The translations under genes and the position numbers were made by a program. The notes beneath the pieces are model-generated. The model had not been told where the DNA came from and searched no databases. It worked only from the letters and a program-made list of their open reading frames with translations. 35,412 nucleotides of DNA from a virus: positions 1 to 35,412 of the IMG/VR virus record IMGVR_UViG_3300024518_002264; one strand, written 5' to 3'. Positions 1-15,723 of the stretch are shown here, in pieces (the first letter of the stretch is position 1; the number at the start of each line of letters is the position of its first letter).

Positions 1-1825
1 TAGCGGGAGAGGAATATTCTCCTTCACGCTTCGCAACAATAGCTTTTTGTTGTTCTATTTTAGCAAAATATAAACTATATTTTCTTGTTCCAACCGGACC
101 ATCTATCCTATCTAATTTAATCTTGTATTTATTTCCTTCAAAATCAAACCTTGTTTCCATAGCTTGATCACCTTTTTTAGATTCAACACCATCAGGGTGT
201 GTCCATTCTAGATCTCTTCTAGTAGTAAAACTAAATTTAGCTTCTGGAATAAATCCTGATTTCGTATTAGTTTTGGTAATTCTAAACTCAGTACCTACTT
301 TCTTTTTATTAGACCCTTTAGAAAGTATATCATGCTCACTAGGTTCCCAACCCAACTTATCAGCCCAGTATTTAGTTAGCGAACTGTACAATCTAACTCT
401 ACTAGTTTCATGAGCATTAAAGTATATTGAGTCTACTTTATTATTTTTAACGTAATCTAATATGCTGTTGCCAACTACACTTAAAACTTGCCATTCATTT
501 CCTTTGCCAGTTATAGTATGGTCTAATATTTGAAAAGGAAGATGAGGACGAGACTTGTCTACGTGCGCAAAATACAAACTGTAATCATTTCCTTTAGCTG
601 ATTCTAACTTGTTTAATCTTACTATATATTTCTCTTTATTAATCTTAAACCAAGCTTCTTGGTTTCCAGCTTTTCCTTTCCATTTTAAATCTCGCTTAGT
701 GTTCATGCTGAACTTAGGGAATGGTGCAGCGCCTAATTCTTCATTGATTCTTGCTTCTAAGTTCTTTAATACAGTGGCCTTAGGTAGTGGTTTTGCTATA
801 GCAAATTCCCCTACAGTGTCACCAACACCATCTTTATACGACTCCACAGATTGTTCCCAACCTAGCTTATCAGCCCAGAATTTTGTTAATGTCTCATAGA
901 TTCTAGTTCTACTAGTATGTCCACTAGTATAAGATATACCATCAACATTGTTTTTCTTAACGAAGTCAAATATACCGTTAGATATTATACTTAGTATTTC
1001 CGCAGCGTTACCAGTGCCAGTAATATCCGTATCCATCTTAAACCCTGCTTTCCTTATTTCATTTTCATTAAACCCAGCTTCTTTCATAGATTTAACCTGT
1101 GCTTTGCTAAGAGAACGTTTTTCTAACTTGGCAAAAGTTAAATCAAAATACTTACCACCATCCACAAAATCACCTTTGAAGTAGAAACTATCAGGAGCCT
1201 GTTCTAATGAAATACCATATTTCTTACCATTAATATCAAACTCAGTGTCAAATACTTCGATGTCATTTCCCGCGTGTTTCCTACTAACCTTATCCCACTC
1301 AAGATCACGCTTAGTCTCCATGCTAAATTTAGCTTGTCTTAGTGCATCCGCTCTTGATGCAACTTCCGCTTGTGCGCTTGTTGGTTCTTTGTACTTAAGT
1401 CCAATGTCGTAACCTGGTTTTCCAATATGGAATATGTTGTGTTGGGAATTAATATCGTGATTCCAATCTAATTTATCCGCCCACAATTTAGTCAATCTCT
1501 CGTATAATCTAGTTCTACTTTTTTCTTTAGAAGAAAAATATAGAACATTAACATCATTTCTTTTTGCTAATTCTAAAACTCCATTTGAAACTACACTTAA
1601 AACTTTAAATGCGTTTCCGTCACCAGTTATAGCTTGACTTCTTCTACCATCTTTTAAGTTGCTAAATGATAATTGCCATTCTCCTTTTGTTTTATCTATT
1701 GAAACTAAATCTATTTCATAAGGAGTTTTATTAATTTCAAACTTCGAATTTAAACCTTCAACCATACCACCATCCCAATTAGTCTTTTTCCAGTCGAGAT
1801 CACGCCTAGTGTCCATGCTAAATTT
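1..1825 (-). repeat. Four tandem copies of a 160-200 residue domain in the giant protein
   Basis: Protein-level repeats begin at residues 3106 (nt 1825), 3271 (nt 1330), 3476 (nt 715) and 3635 (nt 238, cut by the window edge). Each opens with KFS followed by a variant of MxT(R/K)RDLxW. Copies 1-3 share a core with TGxGNA, then a run like VLSxVxNxI, then SRxRLYxxLTKxWADKLxW. The copies differ widely in sequence and length, so the duplication is old and not a recent DNA repeat. The pattern ending in a tyrosine-leucine helix and a WADKLGW-type motif faintly recalls GNAT acetyltransferases, but that is a guess. Confidence 0.85.
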
Positions 1826-4800
1826 AGCTTTATTGTTTTTATCAATGCTTTTTAATTCTTTGTTTATATCACTAATTAGTTCTTTAGGTTTGGGAAAAAC
1901 TTTATCAAGTATTTTATCGAAAATACCCGCTGTTTTTTGTTTTCTTTCTGCAGTTTTATTTTCCTTTTTCTCTTTACTCCATACATCTCGCATATCAACA
2001 TTAGAAACTTTATTACCGATATATTTATCTACAACAATAACGGGTAAACCTTTTGTTATGGATTTTCCATCATATAAAGAATTTATCTTATTCGCTCTAG
2101 AATTAATACTTTTCTTCATTGAAAAATTATCTTGTGCCCAATCCATGAATTCATTTAGTATCTCAGAAGCGTTAGGTTGTTTTAGAACATTTTTAATACT
2201 AATTGAACCATCTTTTTTGTTAGTATTATAGAATCTTGCTTCTATTGCATCTGCTTGATTTGGAAATTTTTCTTTTGCAATTTCCAAAAATCCACTTGCA
2301 TCATCAATATCGGGTATGATAGTGGCATCTTTCAAATCTTTAGCTTTAACACTAGATACTCTACCGTCCCCTTCTACTGCGTAACTATAAGCGCCATGAG
2401 GGTCACCAGTAACAAACCACACAGCGTTAAAATCTCCTAAAGTCCCACTACCACCATGATATAAAGTTTCGTTCTTTATTAAATCCCTGAATTTATTATA
2501 GTTTGGATTTTTTTCTAAATCAGTTTTTATAGTATTACTAAACTTGACATTAGATTCTCTAGGTTTAGCTTGCTGAGTTTTAGATTTAACTGGTAATTGA
2601 TCTAAAGCTTCTTGAACAGCTTCAACATTAGCTTTATGATCGTCTGCGAAATAGAAGTCATTAAAACCTTCTTTAGCTTTACCAACCATCCATTCTGCTT
2701 TAGCAGCTGGAGCACCGTTTTCTAAACCAGTTATATTTTCTATAGGTATATCTAATCCCATGCTCTTTAAGAACTCATGTATAGATGGAGCAGCTTCTTG
2801 TGGTCTAGCAGTTAATACAAACATGTTTCTATCGCCTTTAGCCTCGTTAATCATCTTAGCTAACCCAAGCAATGGACCTTCGCCTCCTTCAATAACTTTC
2901 TCAAATTCACTAAAATCAAACTTAGCACCTTCACCAGTTAAACGATCTCCATGTTCTGCAAACCCACCAGCTTCTAATCTACCACGTTCTGTTGCGTTTA
3001 ATTTAGAATTAACTGACTCAACGAATCCAGGAGGCATTTCACCCTGCTTTAAGTTATCAGTGTTAACTTCAAAGAAATTTTCACCAAACTCTTTAGCGTA
3101 TTCTGCTTTATTAGCGTTAACAGAATCCCATGTTTTATCAACTATTTTATCCTTAAGAGATCTTGCCTTTCTATCTCTATTTCTTTGTAATGCGGTTTCT
3201 TTCGATGTCTCTACATATACCATCTTAACATCATAACCCTTTTCCTTAAGTGCCTCTATCTTAGCCCTAGTAGCCTTTATTGATGCTCCAGTTCCATCTA
3301 ATACAACTCCAGTACCTTCATTAGTATATTTATCTAATTTTCTTTCCGCGATCTTTTTAGCTAAAGCACCCATCTCAGATCTAACAGATCTTTGAACGGC
3401 ATCGTATCCAGCTTCACCTTCAGATAACCCAACTAACTTCTTAGCCCATTCTAAAGATATATCTTGGTTAACAGTTTTGTAACCTTGTTTCCCTAGACCT
3501 AAACCTTTTACAACACTAGATTTACCACTTCCAGGAGCACCAGCCAGTACAATTGCTTTAAGTTTAGATGAAGGTTTACCTGTAGTATTAGGTTTGTCAT
3601 ATATAACCCTACTATCAGTTGTCGCTAATGTATCATCAAAATCAAATACTCTAGCTTTTTTAGGTTCTTTATTTAACTCCCTAGCTTTCTCTAAAGCTAT
3701 ATCAGTAATACCCATAACCTCTATTTGCTCAGAAACTGTTTTAGGTTTTTTAGTATTACTAAAATGAGGCATGACGGTTTTGTTCTGTTTCATAACCTCT
3801 TGTGCAGCTTCATATGCATCTTTTTGGTACTCCCCTATCTTCTTTATCTTTCCATTTTCAAATATTATAATAGGTTCTGAAAAAGCTCCATAAGTAAACT
3901 CATTTAAATACCTATCAAATCTGTTTTTATATTCTAAAGGTTTACTTTTCCCGTGTCTCATGTTCACTATCGTATCCACTGGGTCATATAGTATAGTAGC
4001 AGATGTATCATTAAATTTTTCTCTTAACTGTGTTTCTGTTATTCTTCCTTCAACAAAGTTTGCGATCTCTATCTGCATGGTTCTAACCGGAGGATTATGC
4101 TCGTATACATAGTCTTTTGGGTTTTTAGATTCCCCTATAACCATGCTGTCAACATGGTAAGAGGCTCTTAATGGAGCGGTCATGTCACCGACAATACTCT
4201 CATTCCATGCGCTAACATCTTGTATGTCAATCTCGTTATTCTTTAATTGTTCTATTAATGATTTAGCTTGAGATATTATTATATCTTTATTAATATCAGC
4301 ATACTCTTTACTGTCTTTTAAAGCTTCTATTAATTTACTTTCTAAAGTACTCCCATCTTTTAAATCTTGTTTTTCTATTAAATCTAAGAACTTCTTATTC
4401 GCTTGTCTTGATTGAGCAAAACTTTTAATATTTACTTTTTCTCCATTAACTAAGACTGCACCTTCTTGACCTTTTTTCGTTGTCTCGATTTTTATAATAT
4501 CATTAAAAACTTTTTCTCCTAATATAGGTTTGACAAGAACCTCCAATAAGTCACTTTTGTTTTTAAATATACTATATCGATTACCGCTTTTATCACCGGT
4601 ATATTCTAACACTAGTTCTCCGTTTTTACGAACTCTAGTTACGCTACCATCTAAAATTTTATTACCACTACTAGCTAAAGCGTTCTTGAAATTTTGTAAA
4701 GCAAATTCAATTAATTCTTTTTCACTTTTAATTTCCCCATTCTCCCACTTCTCTCTTATTATGTTTCTCGCGGCTTGTTCTAAACCTTCAACTCTCAATT

Positions 4801-7800
4801 TTACGTCTTTATACTTACTTATTCCAAATATTTCCTTGGCACTAAAGTCAGCTCTACCACTTTGTTCCCAATATGATTTCTCCAGCAAGTTGTAAATATC
4901 TTTAGTTGATAATGGTATATCACCTTTTTTTAACTTAGGCAGTTGTTTAACCACGGTAGACCATTGTTCTTTGATTTTTTTCAAGAGATTCCCTTTAATA
5001 CCAGCTTCCCCAAAAATAAGATCAGCGGCTCTATCAACTCGAACACCATCGCTAATTTTTAACATAAAACTAGGAACTTTCTCTGAATAAACATCTTTAA
5101 TTTCTTCTGAGTTTGTTAATTTATCGATCTCTGATATAATAGTACCTAAATTCTGTTTCTTTTTTGTAATGTTATCTAAAATAGCATCTCCATGAGCTTT
5201 ACTTTTTATAGTAGTAATGAACTCTACAGTATTACCGTTAAAATCTTTAGAACTTTCCTTAGTCATAGAAAAAGCCACGTTTGGATCAACCCCAACTGCT
5301 TTAGAAATTTCCGCTACAGTTTTGTCAGCAGTTAAAACATCAATCAATTTTTTATTTACTTTTAATTGATCATTTATCTCACTTAATCTATTTGAATCAT
5401 TTTCATTTAATTTACTTATATCTTTTTTATCTTCTAATTTTCTTTGTTCTACTTTTAATAAATTACTTTCTTTGTCGATTTCTTTAACTTTTAAATCTTT
5501 AGCTGCATTTAAAGCATCTTTACCTATTTTCTCTGCTAATAATTTTCCGATAGCTAACCGTCCTTCGTTTGGTCTACTTATTTCGTTAATAAAATAATCT
5601 GCAATTTCGCTTGGAGTGGGATTTTTCTTTTCGTATTTTCCTCTTTGAGAAGCTTCATTAGTTATACGTTCTTCAACTCCAGCTCTTCTAGCTTCAGCAT
5701 AAGTAAATTTACCAACTTCTTTATAAAAAACATCCCAATTTCTATTTCTTATTAATTCTGGATTAGTTTCATTTATTCTCAAAAGCTCCTTCGCTAGTTT
5801 GTTTTCAATAAAAACCCTGTAGTCTACCTTTGATTTACCACCAGCTTTTGGTATTTCATTAAGAATGTCTTTCTTTAATTCATTAATAATCTGTTCAGAA
5901 ACCCTTGGTCCTGATTTACCTCCTTTAAGTTTTCTACTAAAAAACTGATAGTCACCTTTTAATATATTAGGTATTTGTTTATCTAGTACATCTTTGACTT
6001 TTCCAATAACGTTATTCTGTTGAGCTTCACTTAAATTAACAACATTTTTAGCTGTTGATCTCATTTCCACCCGAGCGTCTTTAGCATCTATTGCTGCTTC
6101 AATACCACTTTCTGCACCCATTTCTTTGACAGCTCCACCTTCTCCTGCGTCAACATCTATTGATTTTGTAAATTTAGTTTTTTCATAATCTTTAAGTATA
6201 TCACCTCTTCTCCAATAAATTCGTGAATTTAAATAGCCAATTAAACTATTATTTATTTCTGGATTAAAATTTATTAAATCTTCTGTTATCCTCATCTTCA
6301 TTTCAGGAAGAAATACATGTTCAACACTTCTCCCATATACATTTTCCCCAACTAATTGAGAACCTTTAAGAAGCCCATCCATTTTTCCACTTTCTATAAA
6401 ATCATAAATAGGAGCTATACCAGGCTTGTTTATAGGATTGCTGAAGCTAGAAGGAATGTCTGGATCTGGATTCCATTGGAGCTTCGTCATGTTGTATCTC
6501 TTGCCATCTGCAGTCAAACCACCCTCAACTAGGTCGTCTATTTCTTGATTATCCTCCGTTTGCTTCCGCGTTAAACCCTTGGCTTTATCTTTTTTTAATC
6601 TTTCTTTATATCTTTCTTCGGCTGCGATTTCTTCTGCTTTTATTACCTCATGTTTTTCAGCATTGATTTCTTTGATTTCCTCCATCAATTCTGTTTTCTT
6701 TTCACCTTCAGCAGCTCTCCATTCGTCACCCTTTTCTTTTGCCTTAGTCTGTAATTCCCCAGACTTTCCATATAAATCTTTAGTAGCTATTTTAGAAAAC
6801 TTAACTTCGCCATCAAGCCCAACACTGACTTCATCAACCCTTCTAACATCTTTTCCAGCTGCATAATCTTGAATATAATTATATGCATCTATACCAGTTT
6901 TAAACTCAGCCTGTGTGAACCCAGCTGGTTTGAATATATTACCAGTTAAAGCATTACCAATTTTTTTCCATTTAGAACTACCATCTATTTTCTTATATTC
7001 TATTCTACCTTCAGCAATAGCATCATGAAACGCTGTGAACCATTCCACTGGTGCTGGATCAGCTTGCATTGATAATTTCCGTTCAACCTCTTGTAATTCT
7101 TCCCATGATAATTGTTTCTTAAAATCTTTTACTAAGTTTGCTATAATCTTAGGATCTTTTAAAGCAGGTTCTGTTAAGAAGTGTAAAAATTCATGAGGAA
7201 CAACTGTAATATTTTTTACTCTTCTAGCTTTTGCTAGATTTATATGTATTATAGGTTTCTTAGTACCATCTGCATTAACTTTCATTTCAATGAAAAACCC
7301 TTCACCTATATGCTTTTTATCTTTACTTACAACATCTACACCAAGTTTAGACGAAGCTTCAATAAACTCTTGATCAGTTTCGAAAGCTTTAAACGTTCCT
7401 TCTGGATATTTCTCTCTAAACTCTTTTTCTGTTTTACGGACAGATTCCATTCTTTGAGTTTCAAGATACCCTTCGTTTTCTTTTTCAGCATTGTCTACAC
7501 GTTCTTGTAATTTTTCTAAAGCTTCTTTATTTTTCTTAAGAGCAAGATCAGTGGTCACCGTTTCTTCATTGTTCTTCTCTCTCTTCTTTTTTTCACTATT
7601 TAATTTACCTTTCTCACTAGCTAACTTATCTGCTTTAATTAACAATTCCATCGCAGCTCTTCTATTAGGCTCCCCTATTCCAAATCCTTTACTATCCAAC
7701 CATTCGACTTTACGTTTTGCATTGGCTAGAATTTGATTTATAGCTGCTTTCTGCTGTATAACCTCTGTAGTCTGTACATCTCCAACAGCCATCTCAATTA

Positions 7801-10800
7801 TAGTTCTTTTGGTTTTTGGATCGCCTAAAGCTTCAATCTGTGCTGGAGTTAGATTTATATCTGCAATGTCTAAACTTTCTTTACCGCTAGCGCCAAGTTG
7901 CATGTCGATTGTATTTTTTAAATCTTCACCAAGTTTTTTTTGTTTGTTGAAAGCTGTTTTGCCGTTGTTGAATTCTTTCATAGCTTCCTCAACGGCTTTT
8001 ATTTCCATACCTTTTACTACTGTCTCAACATCTGTCTCTAGTTCTTGTAGTTTTTCAGCAAGTTCTGTTCCTGCAAGTTCTCCAAATTCTCCTTGTTGGT
8101 CTTTGTACTTTGGGTCATTTAGTAATTCTTGTCTCTTTTTTAATCCAATGTCTCTTAAGCGACTAATACCAGAATCTTTACCAAGCCAATCTGATCTTAC
8201 ACCTAATCTTTTTTCCGCAGCACGTACTTTTGGGTTGTTTGATAATCCTACTATTTCATTACCTAGTTTGTTTACAAACTTTCTAGTAGACGAACCAAAC
8301 TCTACAGCTGTAGATTTTCCACCACAAAGTATCAATTGCCAGAATAAAATATTTGCTTTTTGAGGATCCGTAATTCTAGCAAACTCTTCAGCACTCATTT
8401 CACCTTTAAGCGTGGAATTTACTAGCTCTACAGCTGTAGCTATAGCTGTGCCACTGCCAGCCCCAATCCCCATATTCACAGTCTCCCTAAATAAAGCTGA
8501 CTCTTGGTAAGCGCGTTTTAAACTAATACCTCCACTATATTCACCCATCATTAACGGACTTAAGTATGCGTTTATACCTTTCCCGGCAATTCCACCACCA
8601 ATACCAAATCCAAGCCACATTTCCCATCCCATTTTGTGAGTACCTAATGTTCTATTCATGGCCTCGTCAGTTAATAGACCAGCGCTTAATTCAAGAACAC
8701 CAGCACCAAATACTTCAATTGATGAAGCTAATATTGGGGTTTTTGCTACATTTTTCCCCAAAGTAAATAGTGTTTTTCCATAACTACTCGTTGGTGTCCA
8801 AATTTTAGGGGCAAGAGGAGCGAGCCTAGTCTCAGTAGTAGCTAGTCTTAACTTACTACCGGTTTTAGTCCATCTTCTTCCATATTTTAATCCACTTGTG
8901 AAAGCTCTTCCACCTAGGTGTCTAAAACTAGCAGCTACAGGCTGTTTCGTTACTCCAACTGTGAAAATAAGAGCTCCAAAATCACCTATTCCTTCAAAAA
9001 TTTGATCTATAGGTCTATCCTTAATTCTCTTTTCTAAATTCTTTATATAATCACTTTTTTCTTCTGTGTCAAACGCGTCTGGATCAACTTCGTAATATGC
9101 ATCTTTAAATTCCTTAGCTATAACATCACCTTTCTTTAAAACTCCTGTCATTGCCGACTCGTTCATTATTACACTTGCTAAACCACTTACAAGGTGATCA
9201 AATGCACCGGTTTGTTCTAAACTAGCTGGATCATAGTTATATGCTAAAGCTTTAGTATATGCTAAAAACATGTTAAGTTGTTTATTGTAGTATTGCCCAA
9301 GTTCTGTTCCATTTGGAACACCAGATAAACGCATAGGTAGTCTATTACCAGCTTCACCACTCATAGCCATTCTCTTAAAATCCTCTTTTAAAGAAAGATC
9401 CTTCTGAGGAACCATTTTCCCAAAATCATAATCAAGTCGCCCTGCAGCACTATCAGCCTCGTATTGTTGCGACAATGCTTCACCACCAAGCAATAAAATA
9501 TTTGAAATTAAATTACTCTTTTCAGATTCCGGAAGTTTAGTCATAGCGTCATTCGTGGCCACTAAATTATATAATAACTTAATTGCGTTTCGCTCCATTT
9601 CATCCCTATCACGAACATTTGCTACTATATCTTTCGCTTCGGCATCGATTTCAACTTTATGTTTTTGTATATACTCCCCAGTTGAAGTATTGAATAATGG
9701 TAATACTCCTTCGTCAAATATCTTTTTTCTTAAAGATTCATATTCCTTAGTCAACTCAATATATCCATCTGAACCAGGTTTTGTTTCAATTATTTTATCT
9801 TCTAATTCTTTTAACTTAATATAACTTGGACTAACATATTTTTCAATAGATTTATATAAATTATTACTTATAACTTCATTGGCTTCTGCTCTAATCTGTT
9901 GTGGACTTACCGCCATCAAAGAGAGAGCTCCTACAAAAGCATTCCAATTATCTTCCCCTTCACCCCATTTATCTATCTCTTCAAGATATTTTTGATTATA
10001 TATTTTAGATACTTCCGCTGTTCTATCCGCATCATAACTAGGAGAATTTGGATCTAACTTGTTCCAATCTATGATCATGTATCCTTCTGAAATATACTGC
10101 TTTGTTTTTTCATCTATTAAAGACTTTTGATCTTTTTGATGGAATACTTTAGATTGATATTTTTTGCCAAAATCCCACTTATCAGTATTTGTTTTGTTAA
10201 TACCAAGAAGGACTTGAACGCTATTCGGTTTATTTAAAGAATAATAACCACCTTTTCCGGCAACAGTAGGATCTGATAAAAATCCATCTTCATTAGGTAA
10301 ATAATCACCTACTTTAAAATCCGATAAATACTCTAGCATGCTTTTTCTACTTCCAATAGGTGCACCAATTAACCCGTTAGAAAATAATCCTAATATTATA
10401 TCATTAGCTTTATCATCTTCTTCCTTATCACCATCTTTATGAAGTTCTTCTTTTAGATTCTCTGCAACCTCATTTTGTTTTTCTTCTAGGAAACGATCGT
10501 AATCAGATTTTACTTCAGTTGGTTTGGTATCTTTTTTTAACCAAGGTTTTTCACCTATGTAAGTTGGATCTAAGCGATTTAATTCTTCTTCTCTGAGAGT
10601 AACTAATCCAACTTCTTGTTGTTTGTCAGGTACAAATTTACCTTGATATTGGTCTGGTCTAGAAGAACCCATTCCCAACCCATAATCCCCAGAAAAATCA
10701 CTATCAATGTTCTGCTCTTCTTTCCAGGTTTCAAATTCTTCTTTCAAATTTTCATCAACCTTTTTCTCTACTTCCTCAATTTGTTCTACATACTTTTCAT

Positions 10801-11140
10801 TTCTTTCGTCATAATGACCTATTTCGTATCCTACTTCTTTCTCGACTTTCTGATCATACGTATAAACTCCGGTTTCTATTTGTTCTTTAATTGAAGGTTC
10901 AAATTTTTTGCGGAGATATTTATTATATTCGTAATCACTTGCTGGAGTAGGCATCCCAAACTGATCTAATTTAGCAGTAGGAATAGGATCAACAACTTCA
11001 AAATAAGACATATCATGATTAGGAGAATCCGGATCCAACATCATACTCTCTTTAGCACCAGGGTGATCTTGGATAAAGGCTTCTACACTTTCAGCGTGAA
11101 CATTATATGAATTACCGTTTTTATCTACGTATATTGGCAT
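1..11140 (-). CDS. Giant polyvalent virion/ejection protein, 3' end beyond window
   Basis: An uninterrupted frame of 3,713 codons starts at the ATG at 11140-11138, one base after the previous stop, and is still open at position 1. Approximate order of parts: residues 1-700 unrecognised; 715-945 several Gly-rich hydrophobic segments; 1150-1260 charged coiled coil; HEFLH at 1316-1320 (zincin-like metallopeptidase); 1450-2455 Lys/Glu-rich, unrecognised; HAD motif DFDDT at 2500-2504; P-loop GAPGSGKSS at 2534-2542; HAD motifs LTARP (T2777) and FADDH (D2833, D2834); YHGG near 2894-2897 (ADP-ribosyltransferase-like); four tandem repeats from 3106 onward. Its place after two smaller internal proteins matches the T7 gp14-gp15-gp16 order, so I infer it is packaged and ejected with the DNA. 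The domain mix matches the published idea of phage polyvalent proteins. Individual domain calls are motif-based. No lytic transglycosylase or RNA polymerase motif was recognised. Confidence 0.85.
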   Translation of the reverse strand, partial: MPIYVDKNGNSYNVHAESVEAFIQDHPGAKESMMLDPDSPNHDMSYFEVVDPIPTAKLDQFGMPTPASDYEYNKYLRKKFEPSIKEQIETGVYTYDQKVEKEVGYEIGHYDERNEKYVEQIEEVEKKVDENLKEEFETWKEEQNIDSDFSGDYGLGMGSSRPDQYQGKFVPDKQQEVGLVTLREEELNRLDPTYIGEKPWLKKDTKPTEVKSDYDRFLEEKQNEVAENLKEELHKDGDKEEDDKANDIILGLFSNGLIGAPIGSRKSMLEYLSDFKVGDYLPNEDGFLSDPTVAGKGGYYSLNKPNSVQVLLGINKTNTDKWDFGKKYQSKVFHQKDQKSLIDEKTKQYISEGYMIIDWNKLDPNSPSYDADRTAEVSKIYNQKYLEEIDKWGEGEDNWNAFVGALSLMAVSPQQIRAEANEVISNNLYKSIEKYVSPSYIKLKELEDKIIETKPGSDGYIELTKEYESLRKKIFDEGVLPLFNTSTGEYIQKHKVEIDAEAKDIVANVRDRDEMERNAIKLLYNLVATNDAMTKLPESEKSNLISNILLLGGEALSQQYEADSAAGRLDYDFGKMVPQKDLSLKEDFKRMAMSGEAGNRLPMRLSGVPNGTELGQYYNKQLNMFLAYTKALAYNYDPASLEQTGAFDHLVSGLASVIMNESAMTGVLKKGDVIAKEFKDAYYEVDPDAFDTEEKSDYIKNLEKRIKDRPIDQIFEGIGDFGALIFTVGVTKQPVAASFRHLGGRAFTSGLKYGRRWTKTGSKLRLATTETRLAPLAPKIWTPTSSYGKTLFTLGKNVAKTPILASSIEVFGAGVLELSAGLLTDEAMNRTLGTHKMGWEMWLGFGIGGGIAGKGINAYLSPLMMGEYSGGISLKRAYQESALFRETVNMGIGAGSGTAIATAVELVNSTLKGEMSAEEFARITDPQKANILFWQLILCGGKSTAVEFGSSTRKFVNKLGNEIVGLSNNPKVRAAEKRLGVRSDWLGKDSGISRLRDIGLKKRQELLNDPKYKDQQGEFGELAGTELAEKLQELETDVETVVKGMEIKAVEEAMKEFNNGKTAFNKQKKLGEDLKNTIDMQLGASGKESLDIADINLTPAQIEALGDPKTKRTIIEMAVGDVQTTEVIQQKAAINQILANAKRKVEWLDSKGFGIGEPNRRAAMELLIKADKLASEKGKLNSEKKKREKNNEETVTTDLALKKNKEALEKLQERVDNAEKENEGYLETQRMESVRKTEKEFREKYPEGTFKAFETDQEFIEASSKLGVDVVSKDKKHIGEGFFIEMKVNADGTKKPIIHINLAKARRVKNITVVPHEFLHFLTEPALKDPKIIANLVKDFKKQLSWEELQEVERKLSMQADPAPVEWFTAFHDAIAEGRIEYKKIDGSSKWKKIGNALTGNIFKPAGFTQAEFKTGIDAYNYIQDYAAGKDVRRVDEVSVGLDGEVKFSKIATKDLYGKSGELQTKAKEKGDEWRAAEGEKKTELMEEIKEINAEKHEVIKAEEIAAEERYKERLKKDKAKGLTRKQTEDNQEIDDLVEGGLTADGKRYNMTKLQWNPDPDIPSSFSNPINKPGIAPIYDFIESGKMDGLLKGSQLVGENVYGRSVEHVFLPEMKMRITEDLINFNPEINNSLIGYLNSRIYWRRGDILKDYEKTKFTKSIDVDAGEGGAVKEMGAESGIEAAIDAKDARVEMRSTAKNVVNLSEAQQNNVIGKVKDVLDKQIPNILKGDYQFFSRKLKGGKSGPRVSEQIINELKKDILNEIPKAGGKSKVDYRVFIENKLAKELLRINETNPELIRNRNWDVFYKEVGKFTYAEARRAGVEERITNEASQRGKYEKKNPTPSEIADYFINEISRPNEGRLAIGKLLAEKIGKDALNAAKDLKVKEIDKESNLLKVEQRKLEDKKDISKLNENDSNRLSEINDQLKVNKKLIDVLTADKTVAEISKAVGVDPNVAFSMTKESSKDFNGNTVEFITTIKSKAHGDAILDNITKKKQNLGTIISEIDKLTNSEEIKDVYSEKVPSFMLKISDGVRVDRAADLIFGEAGIKGNLLKKIKEQWSTVVKQLPKLKKGDIPLSTKDIYNLLEKSYWEQSGRADFSAKEIFGISKYKDVKLRVEGLEQAARNIIREKWENGEIKSEKELIEFALQNFKNALASSGNKILDGSVTRVRKNGELVLEYTGDKSGNRYSIFKNKSDLLEVLVKPILGEKVFNDIIKIETTKKGQEGAVLVNGEKVNIKSFAQSRQANKKFLDLIEKQDLKDGSTLESKLIEALKDSKEYADINKDIIISQAKSLIEQLKNNEIDIQDVSAWNESIVGDMTAPLRASYHVDSMVIGESKNPKDYVYEHNPPVRTMQIEIANFVEGRITETQLREKFNDTSATILYDPVDTIVNMRHGKSKPLEYKNRFDRYLNEFTYGAFSEPIIIFENGKIKKIGEYQKDAYEAAQEVMKQNKTVMPHFSNTKKPKTVSEQIEVMGITDIALEKARELNKEPKKARVFDFDDTLATTDSRVIYDKPNTTGKPSSKLKAIVLAGAPGSGKSSVVKGLGLGKQGYKTVNQDISLEWAKKLVGLSEGEAGYDAVQRSVRSEMGALAKKIAERKLDKYTNEGTGVVLDGTGASIKATRAKIEALKEKGYDVKMVYVETSKETALQRNRDRKARSLKDKIVDKTWDSVNANKAEYAKEFGENFFEVNTDNLKQGEMPPGFVESVNSKLNATERGRLEAGGFAEHGDRLTGEGAKFDFSEFEKVIEGGEGPLLGLAKMINEAKGDRNMFVLTARPQEAAPSIHEFLKSMGLDIPIENITGLENGAPAAKAEWMVGKAKEGFNDFYFADDHKANVEAVQEALDQLPVKSKTQQAKPRESNVKFSNTIKTDLEKNPNYNKFRDLIKNETLYHGGSGTLGDFNAVWFVTGDPHGAYSYAVEGDGRVSSVKAKDLKDATIIPDIDDASGFLEIAKEKFPNQADAIEARFYNTNKKDGSISIKNVLKQPNASEILNEFMDWAQDNFSMKKSINSRANKINSLYDGKSITKGLPVIVVDKYIGNKVSNVDMRDVWSKEKKENKTAERKQKTAGIFDKILDKVFPKPKELISDINKELKSIDKNNKAKFSMDTRRDLDWKKTNWDGGMVEGLNSKFEINKTPYEIDLVSIDKTKGEWQLSFSNLKDGRRSQAITGDGNAFKVLSVVSNGVLELAKRNDVNVLYFSSKEKSRTRLYERLTKLWADKLDWNHDINSQHNIFHIGKPGYDIGLKYKEPTSAQAEVASRADALRQAKFSMETKRDLEWDKVSRKHAGNDIEVFDTEFDINGKKYGISLEQAPDSFYFKGDFVDGGKYFDLTFAKLEKRSLSKAQVKSMKEAGFNENEIRKAGFKMDTDITGTGNAAEILSIISNGIFDFVKKNNVDGISYTSGHTSRTRIYETLTKFWADKLGWEQSVESYKDGVGDTVGEFAIAKPLPKATVLKNLEARINEELGAAPFPKFSMNTKRDLKWKGKAGNQEAWFKINKEKYIVRLNKLESAKGNDYSLYFAHVDKSRPHLPFQILDHTITGKGNEWQVLSVVGNSILDYVKNNKVDSIYFNAHETSRVRLYSSLTKYWADKLGWEPSEHDILSKGSNKKKVGTEFRITKTNTKSGFIPEAKFSFTTRRDLEWTHPDGVESKKGDQAMETRFDFEGNKYKIKLDRIDGPVGTRKYSLYFAKIEQQKAIVAKREGEYSSPA

Positions 11141-11141
11141 A

Positions 11142-12632
11142 TTATTTTATTAATTTATCTATATCTTTATTAAAATTGTTTACATCCTTTTCACTTGATA
11201 ATTTTGCTTCTGCATCCACTATAGCTCCAGCAAGTTGTTTTATTTCTTCTCTTGACATCCCATAGAAACTTGATTCTGCAACTTTAGAACTAGCTATTAT
11301 ATTTCTCTCAACTTCTTGTTTCATTTTATAATAAGCATGTTTTTTCGTTGTGTTTTCTTTAGAAGGAACAGTTTTACCGCTCTCATAAACTCTTCTTGGT
11401 TTTAAGTCCTTTATCTCTTGCTTTATCTCAGCGATTGGTTTTTTTAATTTATTAGGATCTTTAAGAATCTTATTTACAAAGGTATCTGTTACATCATTAA
11501 CACTAGTGTCATCAGTAACATCAGCAGTAACACTAGCAGTGCCGGCATCATTCAATATTATGTTATCGTCTCTAACTGGATCTTCTTTACGTTTTGGTTG
11601 CATACCAAACTTATCTCTATTATTATCTATATATTCAGGTATCCATTTTGCAGCATTATTTCTTTGCTCTTTAAATAATTCAGATTCCTTGTCAACATTA
11701 CCCATCCAAGGTTTAAGATCTTTTTCTTCTACACCGTTGTCAAGTTGTAATCGCGTCCAATAACCTTCCATGGATTGTGGATCATTAATAACATTACTAT
11801 AATCACCATTCATAATTTGCTTTGTAATATCTGCATCTAATTCTTTCCAAGCTTCAATATCTGTAATAATACCATTTTTACCTTGAAGTTCCTTATATCT
11901 TATTTTAGCCCAGCCACCACCACCTTGACCTTTGCCAACTCTTTGATCTACAATACCTCTTATTACTTTATTTTCAGAAACATCTTGAACTTTTTGTAGC
12001 ATACTCTTAGTTTTAAGAGATCCTCTAGTAAATTCTTCTGCATCGAAGCGATTTATTTTACTAGGGTCCTGTGGATCTGTATATGTTAAGTACAATCTTT
12101 CACCTTCGTAAGTGTAATTAACATTAGCTCCTTTATTTTGATCAAGATCTTGCATGATCGCTCTCCAATTAGGATCAGTTCTAAGACCGTCCATACCACC
12201 AATACTGTTTGGATCACGCTTCATCATCTCTATATATTCTTTCAACTGAGGTGCTATTGATTGATTACAAGCTGAAACTTGATCTGGTAAATTATAGTAT
12301 CTACCCTCTTGAATACCTATTTCTCTAGCACTTAAATCTGGATCATTTGGTACTTCAAATAGCCAATTACCCACGTTTTCAAGAAATCCTCCTACATTTT
12401 CATTAAAACTACCTTGTTTAGTGGTTTTAATACCACCTATTTCTTTACCCCAAGCATTTTGTTTCTTTTTGTTTTCTTCGTCAATTTTTTTATTTTTACT
12501 AAAATTGTCAATTGCTGCTTTAGTAATGTTAGCCATAGCTACTTCTCCGGCCTTAGCTATTTGAGTTCCAGCTGCTGCTAATGCTTGTGCTGCTAAAGGT
12601 TGTATAATACCTGGTTGTTCGTATGTTCCCAT
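11142..12632 (-). CDS. Putative internal virion (ejection) protein, gp15-like position
   Basis: This 496-residue protein starts at ATG 12632 after an A/T-only leader and ends one base before the giant gene, so the two are probably translationally linked. The N-terminus is Ala-rich and helical (LAAQALAAAG), followed by a charged Lys/Glu stretch near residues 50-65, a Gly-rich GKGQGGGGW near 230, and a Lys/Glu-rich C-terminal third. I see no catalytic motif. Its placement between a small gp14-like protein and a giant protein matches gp15 in T7-like ejection modules. The role is inferred from position only; sequence similarity to gp15 was not recognised. Confidence 0.7.
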   Translation of the reverse strand: MGTYEQPGIIQPLAAQALAAAGTQIAKAGEVAMANITKAAIDNFSKNKKIDEENKKKQNAWGKEIGGIKTTKQGSFNENVGGFLENVGNWLFEVPNDPDLSAREIGIQEGRYYNLPDQVSACNQSIAPQLKEYIEMMKRDPNSIGGMDGLRTDPNWRAIMQDLDQNKGANVNYTYEGERLYLTYTDPQDPSKINRFDAEEFTRGSLKTKSMLQKVQDVSENKVIRGIVDQRVGKGQGGGGWAKIRYKELQGKNGIITDIEAWKELDADITKQIMNGDYSNVINDPQSMEGYWTRLQLDNGVEEKDLKPWMGNVDKESELFKEQRNNAAKWIPEYIDNNRDKFGMQPKRKEDPVRDDNIILNDAGTASVTADVTDDTSVNDVTDTFVNKILKDPNKLKKPIAEIKQEIKDLKPRRVYESGKTVPSKENTTKKHAYYKMKQEVERNIIASSKVAESSFYGMSREEIKQLAGAIVDAEAKLSSEKDVNNFNKDIDKLIK

Positions 12633-12654: not shown

Positions 12655-12764
12655 TTATCCCCAATCATCGTCCATACTGTCCCAGTATTCATTCCCAGTA
12701 TGTCCAAAATTATTCCAATCTTCAGGAGTATTCATGTTTTGTGGGGGACCATTTACCCCTTCTA
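12655..12764 (-). CDS. Probable -1 frameshift extension of the gp14-like protein
   Basis: Frame -1 relative to the upstream gene is open from the frameshift site to TAA at 12657-12655. It adds 36 residues beginning VEGVNGPPQN and then MNTPEDWNN, ending in an acidic, Trp-containing tail (DSMDDDWG). It fills most of the otherwise empty 129-base gap and stops 22 bases before the next start. The frame also contains its own ATG at 12735-12733 behind an A-rich stretch, so a separate 26-residue protein is the main alternative. The residue composition looks protein-like rather than random, but the segment is short. Confidence 0.6.
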
Positions 12765-12771
12765 CTTTCCC
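12743..12771 (-). promoter_or_regulatory. Putative -1 ribosomal frameshift site (slippery heptamer plus stem)
   Basis: On the minus strand, 12771-12765 reads G GGA AAG in the X_XXY_YYZ phase of the upstream gene, directly before its TAG stop (12764-12762). After a 5-base spacer (TAGAA) comes GGGG (12759-12756), an 8-base loop, then a run of five C (12747-12743), giving a four-pair GC stem. Slippery heptamer, short spacer and stem are the classical parts of a -1 frameshift signal. The same heptamer, GGGAAAG, is used in phage lambda to make gpGT. Use here is inferred. Confidence 0.65.
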
Positions 12772-13448
12772 GCGTCTACTGCAGCACTGTATGATCCATA
12801 ACTACCAGCAAAACTAGTTAATGAAGATCCTACATTTCCAACAGCTTGATACATAGCTGCTTGATTAGCTTGTTGCATCATTGCCTGTTGATCAATTTGA
12901 GTTTGAGATCTATTTAATTCCATCATCTCTCTTTTCTCTTGTTCACCATATTGGAATAGATCACCTTGAACACCTGCTCCTTGCAATCTCTGTTGCTCAG
13001 CCATTCTTTGTTGGTTTGCTGTTGCTTCTCCTTGAGCTCTTAATCTACTGTTGTTTGCCTCTTGTTGTTCAATACTAGCTGATATACCTTTTTTACTTCT
13101 AAGAGCTGCTTGTGCTAAAGCAGTCGCCCCACCAGCACCTGCACCAGTCGCTCTTAATGTATCTAAAGTGTTTGCTAAAGCAATATCCGCTTCTTCAGCT
13201 TGCATTTTAGATGCCTGCGTAGCTACAGATAGATTAGCATAAGGATTTTGAATCATATGACTCATATCCTTTATGTTTTCATATGGATTAGGTATATTCT
13301 GCCTATTTTTAACTAAAGCGTCTTGCAATCTTTTTTGCTCATCTCTTTCAAATTCAGCATCGTTGGCTTGGTTATTAGAGTGAATCGCTAACCCAACATT
13401 TACTGCAACTCCAACTCCGGCAACTATACCGGCAACTAACATACTCAT
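12762..13448 (-). CDS. Small internal virion protein, T7 gp14-like
   Basis: This 228-residue protein starts at ATG 13448, sharing ATGA with the stop of the upstream gene. The N-terminus is a hydrophobic, Gly/Ala-rich segment (residues 3-22, VAGIVAGVGVAVNVG), followed by a long polar region rich in Gln, Ala and Asn that should be largely alpha-helical. A short hydrophobic N-terminus followed by Gln/Ala-rich helices is the usual look of gp14-type proteins, which leave the capsid first and sit in the outer membrane as part of the DNA-entry channel. The last in-frame codons GGA AAG TAG overlap a slippery heptamer, so a 264-residue form may also be made. The family call rests on composition and gene order. 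Confidence 0.65.
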   Translation of the reverse strand: MSMLVAGIVAGVGVAVNVGLAIHSNNQANDAEFERDEQKRLQDALVKNRQNIPNPYENIKDMSHMIQNPYANLSVATQASKMQAEEADIALANTLDTLRATGAGAGGATALAQAALRSKKGISASIEQQEANNSRLRAQGEATANQQRMAEQQRLQGAGVQGDLFQYGEQEKREMMELNRSQTQIDQQAMMQQANQAAMYQAVGNVGSSLTSFAGSYGSYSAAVDAGK

Positions 13449-13938: not shown

Positions 13939-15723
13939 TTAATATGATGATAATACGAATTCAGAGCTAACTGAATATAATTCTTTCATTCCACCTGGAT
14001 CAGTGGTAGAATCTGTTTTAAATTTCACAGTGGCAAAATAACCTTTAATACCAGTCATACCTGTTATTATAACTTCACCAGGTCTTGGTGTCGATGTATC
14101 AATTATATTAGTCGTATATAAGTTTTCTTTTCTATCAAATCCAGCTCTAGTAGGATAACCAGTTCTTGGATCAGTATATAATCCTTCTTCATAACTATAA
14201 ACAACACCTATTTTATCTTGATTCTGAACCCAATTTGTATTTAAACTATCTTTACCTGTATAACCTGATACAAAATATTCACCTTCCCAGCCATTACTAC
14301 CTTCATATGCTAGTGTTTTAAAATTCTTGGATACAGAAGGACTAGGGTTAAACACAAACGATATACTAGATTCTGCTCTGTCTAGATCATAATATATACC
14401 TCTATTGTCATCTTGGTTGGAATTAAAATAATGTTCGTATAGTTTTCCATCATAAAAAGAGTAATATTTATTCTTTAAACTACCTATAAAAGCTGGTTTA
14501 TAATGATGAAAACTAGTCCAACCGTTTAAACTTTCGTCAAACGACACAGTACTATAGTCACCTGCTTCACCATCTATTTTAGGTGTAATTGAGTGATTGT
14601 CATGCACTTTTGATACATTTTGCATAGATACTACATAACTTTTATTATGTATATCCCATCCACCTAATATTTGACTCTTAACATTGTTAATAAATTTAAC
14701 AGTATAATACTTATTATCTGGTACACCTGACAACTTAACAGCACATACTATATCAACACCATTATTATACTCAGTTGCTTCTTCAACAAACAATCCTGAA
14801 TCAATAAAATTACCATTAACATCTTCAAAAGCCACACTAGAACCTATGGTAATATCACAACACGAAATATTTTGATCATTGACAGATATCCAATTATCAC
14901 CCCAACCGGTGGGACCAGCGCCCATTGATCCTAATATAGAAACCTCTAACCAATCATCTGAAATAGATGCTAATTCATCTCTAAAATAATCAACCATACC
15001 ATATCTACTTATCTCAGTTAACCCGTCTCTAGATAGTCTTAAAATGCATCCTCGGTTACGATCTGCAAAGTATTTTTGAAATCCATATATTGCAAAAGAC
15101 TCTGGATTTGTACTTATACCATATTCACCTAGATAAGGTACGATTTGCCCTATAACTACATTTGACTGAGTTTGCATAGCAGAACCTTCAGCTGTGTATA
15201 CGGCGTCTTTATCAATTAAAGCTCTTTGAACTTTATTCTCTTGGAATATCATTAAATTGGTATCTTCAGCATATAACTTCTGAATAGATCCATTTATTGG
15301 ATCTACACTTTTAGTTATATCTTGACCAACAGAAAATACGTTAGTATCATTAACACCTGTTCTAGAATTAAATACTCCAGAATATATTAAAGAACTTGAC
15401 AATCTCTCTTGATTTTTTCTTTCTTCTACTATATAAGCTTTAACACCTAAATCAATAGGAGTGTTATTAAAACCACCTTTTATCCTCATCTCTTCAACAA
15501 ACCAAGGTTCTTGATATGCGTTTTCATCACCTTGATTTCCTACAGGTGCCCATTCCCCAGGTGTAGAAGAATCACCAAATGGAAATTTAGGATATCCACT
15601 TGGATTCCATGGTAAACCAGGCCAACCAGGTAAAAGAATAGGTGCGTCAACAGGATCTGGTAATTTACAAACCTTTTTTAACCAAAAAGAATTAAAATAT
15701 TTTACTTCTACTAATACTCCCAT
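13939..15723 (-). CDS. Tail tube/stabilisation-type structural protein
   Basis: This 594-residue protein starts at ATG 15723, overlapping the previous stop by one base (TAATG). After a Pro/Trp-rich N-terminal stretch (residues 20-65) comes a segment with IYSGVFNSRTG, SIQKLYAEDTNL, FQENKVQRALIDKD and GEYGISTNPESFA, then RLSRDGLTEIS. I remember this series as the conserved core of tail stabilisation proteins in crAss-like and marine Bacteroidota phages, where it often lies in the same polypeptide as, or next to, the large tube protein. Repeated short beta motifs suggest a propeller-like fold at the tail. The name is by recalled resemblance and context. Confidence 0.65.
   Translation of the reverse strand: MGVLVEVKYFNSFWLKKVCKLPDPVDAPILLPGWPGLPWNPSGYPKFPFGDSSTPGEWAPVGNQGDENAYQEPWFVEEMRIKGGFNNTPIDLGVKAYIVEERKNQERLSSSLIYSGVFNSRTGVNDTNVFSVGQDITKSVDPINGSIQKLYAEDTNLMIFQENKVQRALIDKDAVYTAEGSAMQTQSNVVIGQIVPYLGEYGISTNPESFAIYGFQKYFADRNRGCILRLSRDGLTEISRYGMVDYFRDELASISDDWLEVSILGSMGAGPTGWGDNWISVNDQNISCCDITIGSSVAFEDVNGNFIDSGLFVEEATEYNNGVDIVCAVKLSGVPDNKYYTVKFINNVKSQILGGWDIHNKSYVVSMQNVSKVHDNHSITPKIDGEAGDYSTVSFDESLNGWTSFHHYKPAFIGSLKNKYYSFYDGKLYEHYFNSNQDDNRGIYYDLDRAESSISFVFNPSPSVSKNFKTLAYEGSNGWEGEYFVSGYTGKDSLNTNWVQNQDKIGVVYSYEEGLYTDPRTGYPTRAGFDRKENLYTTNIIDTSTPRPGEVIITGMTGIKGYFATVKFKTDSTTDPGGMKELYSVSSEFVLSSY

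Follow-up and report, generated by a model that had tools for sequence, protein, structure and literature searches.

Does translation of the 228-residue gene in this viral DNA always end at its TAG, or is the gene also read on into an overlapping frame by a programmed -1 frameshift? The window, by which we mean the whole stretch analysed (35,412 nt, IMG/VR record IMGVR_UViG_3300024518_002264), carries the gene on its minus strand with the 3' end GTA GAC GCG GGA AAG TAG (Table 1). A spacer of five nucleotides (TAGAA) leads from the slippery heptamer to a short stem with arms GGGG (12759-12756) and CCCC (12747-12744), and the -1 frame, which reads GK and then VEGVNGPPQNMNTPEDWNNFGHTGNEYWDSMDDDWG, ends at a TAA (12657-12655) and fills the gap up to the ATG of the downstream gene at 12632. 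A preliminary description of this DNA, made from the letters alone, had located the heptamer, the GGGG/CCCC stem, the 36-codon -1 frame and its TAA, all of them correctly on re-reading, and had proposed a programmed -1 frameshift, a reading that the comparative evidence below supports.

Table 1. Features at and downstream of the 3' end of the 228-residue gene (window coordinates)
Feature	Position	Strand	Basis
gp14-like internal virion / ejection-type gene (likely), zero-frame product 228 aa	12762..13448	-	homologues, AlphaFold2 model, BFVD match
Slippery heptamer G_GGA_AAG, in phase, stop directly after	12765..12771	-	sequence; enriched in long-gap homologues
Zero-frame stop TAG	12762..12764	-	sequence
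Putative stimulatory hairpin GGGG-(8 nt)-CCCC, 5 nt past heptamer	12744..12759	-	-6.0 kcal/mol; equivalents in homologues
-1 frame extension, 36 codons + TAA; predicted frameshift product 264 aa	12655..12765	-	open frame
Next gene, 496 aa, gp15-like by position only; its start bounds the extension-filled gap	11142..12632	-	
Giant ORF, at least 3713 aa, off contig end; gp16/polyvalent-like by position	2..11140	-	

In shuffled gap sequences the -1 frame stays open equally far in 4% of cases, and a hairpin as stable as that of the window arose at the same spacing in 0 of 200 shuffles. Recoding of the TAG as an amino acid was considered and rejected: only three residues would be gained before a TAA, and translation table 11 suits the rest of the window well.

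On this sequence evidence we regard it as very probable that a programmed -1 ribosomal frameshift produces a minority 264-residue form of the gp14-like protein besides the 228-residue form. Most ribosomes would terminate at the TAG and release the shorter protein, while a fraction would slip back by one base on G_GGA_AAG, aided by the adjoining stop codon and the small hairpin, and would add the 36 residues of the -1 frame. The 228-residue part is probably packaged in the virion and delivered during DNA ejection, in which case the slip rate would set the number of tailed subunits per particle, and the tail may serve as an accessory binding or docking element. We infer slippage in the host, and likewise a slip rate and a virion location for the product.

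Heptamer, hairpin and -1 frame among homologues

At least 562 homologues were confirmed in viral contigs in one scan, and 248 distinct homologue 3' ends from such contigs were sampled, comprising a first set of 192 and a hold-out of 56 new ends from another scan. The gap to the next gene is 2-40 nt in most of the 248. Twenty-seven, the window counted, have a gap of 62-176 nt or run off the contig end, with the -1 frame open throughout, and 24 of these 27 carry a canonical in-phase heptamer at or just before the stop, compared with 3 of 216 short-gap homologues. The heptamer is GGGAAAN in 19 (the window and 18 others) and AAAAAA[GC] in five (L088, L122, L230, L269 and L371); the canonical form is absent from three -1 members (L034, L116 and L357).

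Within the first set, a strong in-phase heptamer lies in the last five codons of 19/26 long-gap and 2/166 short-gap genes (Fisher p = 1.6e-18); this test and that of the hold-out ignore shared ancestry, the -1 cases being nonetheless scattered over the tree. The association is phase-specific, with heptamers in the two other phases found in 1/26 and 1/26 long-gap genes, and it recurs in the hold-out, where 5/6 long-gap and 1/50 short-gap genes have the heptamer (p = 9e-6) and the -1 frame is open in 6/6 of the long-gap genes. Seven long-gap genes of the first set lack a strong heptamer, namely L034 and L116, which have an open -1 frame and weaker G-rich sites, and L066, L067, L069, L210 and L063. 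The gaps of L210 (next gene probably mis-called), L063 (at a contig end) and L269 (next start doubtful) are not to be taken literally. The preliminary description had proposed aligning homologues, and the alignment finds heptamer, spacer and -1 frame kept in about one tenth of those sampled, in many separate lineages; this frequency (11%) is biased, because some of the sampled homologues were retrieved by queries from frameshift-bearing clades, which carry the frameshift themselves. A large set of uncultured crAss-like marine phages thus appears to use such a frameshift.

When hairpins are counted as perfect stems of at most -3 kcal/mol placed where expected after the heptamer, 20 of the 27 -1 members have one 3-7 nt downstream (15/21 in the first set, at 3-6 nt, and 5/6 in the hold-out, at 5-7 nt), and in seven none was detectable. 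A stimulatory structure downstream is usual at -1 frameshift sites, though not every site needs one. Hairpins at that spacing were found in 0% of short-gap controls and at 3% of positions further along the long gaps. Since the arms (GGGG/CCCC, CAACCCC/GGGGTTG, GCCCA/TGGGC and CGCCG/CGGCG, for example) are largely unrelated between members, it is the structure and not the sequence that recurs. The group means of minimum-free-energy z-scores (-1.18 versus +0.17) agree with this result; computed over 36 nt, a wider stretch, the window's own z-score does not stand out (-0.11).

The extensions also look like coding sequence. Among first-set homologues with gaps above 60 nt, the -1 frame is open to 33 nt or less from the next start in 18/24, compared with 3/24 for the zero frame and 4/24 for the +1 frame. 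Peptides in the -1 frame are shared between members whose genes are divergent: YKPNDTVGFY is common to L222 and L226, F.FN..TAGS.DL to L072 and L079, FKVTNP to L324 and L357, AAPSVRP to L028 and L357, and WAVND to L368 and L371, although the heptamers of these last two differ (GGGAAAG and AAAAAAG, respectively). Third codon positions are the commonest site of change in some pairs, with 13, 8 and 21 substitutions by codon position between the extensions of L072 and L079, the pairs being too short for a firm dN/dS from such counts and the closest (L230/L269 and L066/L067) uninformative. Measured from a conserved Arg, the zero-frame products of -1 members end after 48-58 residues in 20/21 (68 in the other), and with the tail they reach 72-111 residues, a length also seen in many of the 46 relatives with an in-frame tail. 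Heptamer, stop, hairpin and open -1 frame, their joint recurrence and the conservation of extension peptides among homologues are all directly in the sequences; for the family they point to a conserved coding -1 frame that would be reached only by a shift. The nearest relative of the window gene is ~50% identical, and no relatives of its tail peptide or of the next gene were found in viral contigs. The tail shares only GPPQN with L080 and has no relatives beyond this motif, so the case for the window rests on the family pattern together with its own heptamer, hairpin and open frame.

Decoding of the tail and rival explanations

In sister lineages the tail, or an analogous one, is decoded in other ways. 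L066, L067 and L069 have a +1 (or -2) site, TTT GGG TAA C, from which the +1 frame runs open almost to the next gene, and TLTPQG occurs both in the +1 tails of L066 and L067 and in the -1 tails of L028 and L249. L028 (by -1) and L066/L067 share a longer stretch of tail, VSTLTPQGYSF. In L122 a -1 shift on nine consecutive A leads to LTIDTDYVPDFNFDNAS; L128, a near relative with ten A, has LTIDTDYVPDFNFDNAS in frame. The decoding mode switches at least 16 times on the tree, and several -1 members have in-frame-tailed sisters; since such relatives exist, the short form is not required in every lineage. The reverse, dnaX-like case, an in-frame tail with a slip to a short form, shows no clear pattern among the 46 in-frame-tailed relatives except for L128, in which slippage at the ten-A run would yield a short form. 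In 11 relatives scattered over the tree (L029, L016, L184, L202, L132, L186, L169, L094, L236, L260 and L295) the in-frame tail resembles peptidase S74 (chaperone of endosialidase), the tail of L029 alone matching peptidase S74 in Pfam with E = 8e-5. A wider proposal, conceivable if somewhat doubtful, is that C-terminal tails are swapped rapidly in this ejection-protein family and that -1, +1 and in-frame switches, evolved again and again, control their dosage, leaving a fixed minority of subunits with a host- or partner-specific binding tail.

Could the extension instead be translated independently, as a small gene initiated at its own start codon (the ATG at 12735-12733 in the window, beginning MNTPEDW...), the heptamer being incidental? 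It would suit such a gene that the window extension holds two ATG codons, that start codons occur in some homologues' extensions, and that genes of Bacteroidota are often without a strong Shine-Dalgarno sequence. We nevertheless consider it very unlikely: the extensions of eight first-set -1 members contain no ATG, GTG or TTG, the -1 frame runs on from the heptamer wherever the heptamer is present, heptamer and hairpin are almost confined to extension-bearing members, and the tail of L122 is fused in frame in L128. Among the findings that the preliminary description had named as speaking against a frameshift are an extension present only as an independent gene and a stop explained by sequencing error. 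The former was not seen among the homologues, several of whose extensions lack a start codon, and the latter is untenable because the same arrangement recurs in 27 different contigs.

Decay of a tail that was formerly in frame and was moved out by an indel, or an artefact of a wrongly sequenced stop, would not be expected to build, across many lineages, a stop-phased heptamer followed by a hairpin at 3-7 nt, nor to maintain an open -1 frame or a conserved peptide, and GGGAAAG is not a homopolymer error site. This makes a decaying or artefactual extension even less likely than a separate gene, although L122 and L128 do differ by one A in their nine- or ten-base A run and, with in-frame tails in many relatives, an origin by indel may well hold. 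Slippage could also be transcriptional rather than ribosomal, with RNA polymerase slipping on the A runs of the five members that use them, L122 with its nine A included. We find this scarcely credible as the source of the second product, given that the window and 18 others use GGGAAAN, where polymerase slippage is not expected, and that a downstream hairpin and an adjoining stop codon suit slippage by the ribosome, which remains our preferred explanation.

Protein identity, known frameshift systems and phage context

The AlphaFold2 model of the 228-residue protein is all-helical (mean pLDDT 82.5). Its top BFVD hit (E = 8e-5) is an uncultured-virus entry named 'Internal virion protein', and internal virion proteins from Roseobacter phage CRP-4 and elsewhere match more weakly; fold comparison with the PDB gave no significant match, only generic helical ones, and no phage protein among the matches listed. 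The protein has no confident PHROG or Pfam assignment, two relatives weakly match phrog_598 'DNA ejection' (best 5.7e-5), and the 496-residue next gene has no PHROGs or Pfam match above cut-off. The 228-, 496- and at least 3713-residue reading frames lie in a T7-like gp14-gp15-gp16 order, a likeness of position and size only, and portal, terminase and structural genes share their strand with the 228-residue gene. Taken together, the fold matches and the gene order make a gp14-like ejection protein likely, so that this label, already used in the preliminary description, is plausible, with indirect support from gene order and weak internal-virion structure matches. Like T7 gp14 (internal virion protein B), the protein is small and helical, with a mid-size gene and then a giant one after it; its sequence did not match T7 gp14, and for T7 gene 14 no frameshift is known to us. 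Among cultured phages, neither DNA nor protein searches detected a relative of the gene, and hence no annotated precedent could be used.

In phage lambda, the tail assembly chaperone gpG/gpGT is made by a -1 frameshift (PMC5009743). What is proposed here resembles that system in having G_GGA_AAG close to the 3' end of a late gene, a minority fusion product, and a shift of -1 or +1 depending on the phage. The lambda product, however, acts as a chaperone of tail assembly, is not part of the virion and belongs to long-tailed phages, whereas the present protein is a podovirus-type gp14-like one; here the stop usually follows the heptamer directly, and the tails are ~16-54 residues long. A chaperone of the G/GT type was itself considered for this gene and rejected, the window having a crAss-like gene set instead of the setting upstream of a tape measure in a long-tailed phage. 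Frameshifted virion proteins are known in the T7/T3 major capsid protein (10A/10B), Lactobacillus phage A2 and Listeria phage PSA (PMC5009743), where, as suggested here, a structural protein occurs with and without a C-terminal extension through a frameshift at the gene end; in those phages coat or tail proteins are concerned, several of them bearing Ig-like extensions, whereas the present carrier is an ejection-type internal protein with short, variable tails of no known domain. Ig-like extensions are decoded by -1, by +1 or in frame without preference (PMC5009743), which the switching of decoding mode in the present family resembles.

The mechanism is thus already known, and the ejection-type gene family appears new as its user. 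Frameshifting in tailed phages has so far concerned tail chaperones, coat and tail proteins; the open-access literature searched gave no case of an internal virion or ejection protein made with a frameshift, in keeping with the remark in the preliminary description that a two-form internal virion protein would be new. With the arrangement present in many lineages of marine phages that are abundant and uncultured, gene callers would be missing the tails of these ejection-type proteins. The arrangement also suggests ejection complexes in which two subunit forms stand at a set ratio. Having moved repeatedly among -1, +1 and in-frame decoding, the family offers a natural series on the gain and loss of frameshift sites, useful also for the interplay of heptamer, stop codon and hairpin.

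As for the phage, the portal (phrog_6547), the terminase (phrog_6681) and the gene set of the window resemble those of crAss-like phages. The 594-residue gene at 13939-15723 (minus strand) has a crAss-like muzzle C-terminal domain (PF25729), which places the window near the crAss-like podoviruses. For the 1163-residue tail gene, matches at 25-28% were found in Cellulophaga phi38:1 and Flavobacterium elemo phages. Some homologues come from metagenome-assembled genomes that bear the labels Crocinitomicaceae, Flavobacteriaceae and Saprospiraceae, which fit a host in the phylum Bacteroidota. Two domains were recognised in the giant reading frame, DUF6934 and, near residues 2523-2674, an AAA/zeta-toxin-like kinase; from its sequence the frame looks like a polyvalent protein that would be ejected together with the DNA. 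Upstream, a 162-residue tail fibre-like gene (phrog_12032) overlaps the start of the 228-residue gene as ATGA (13445-13448, minus strand), an overlap that suggests translational coupling of the two.
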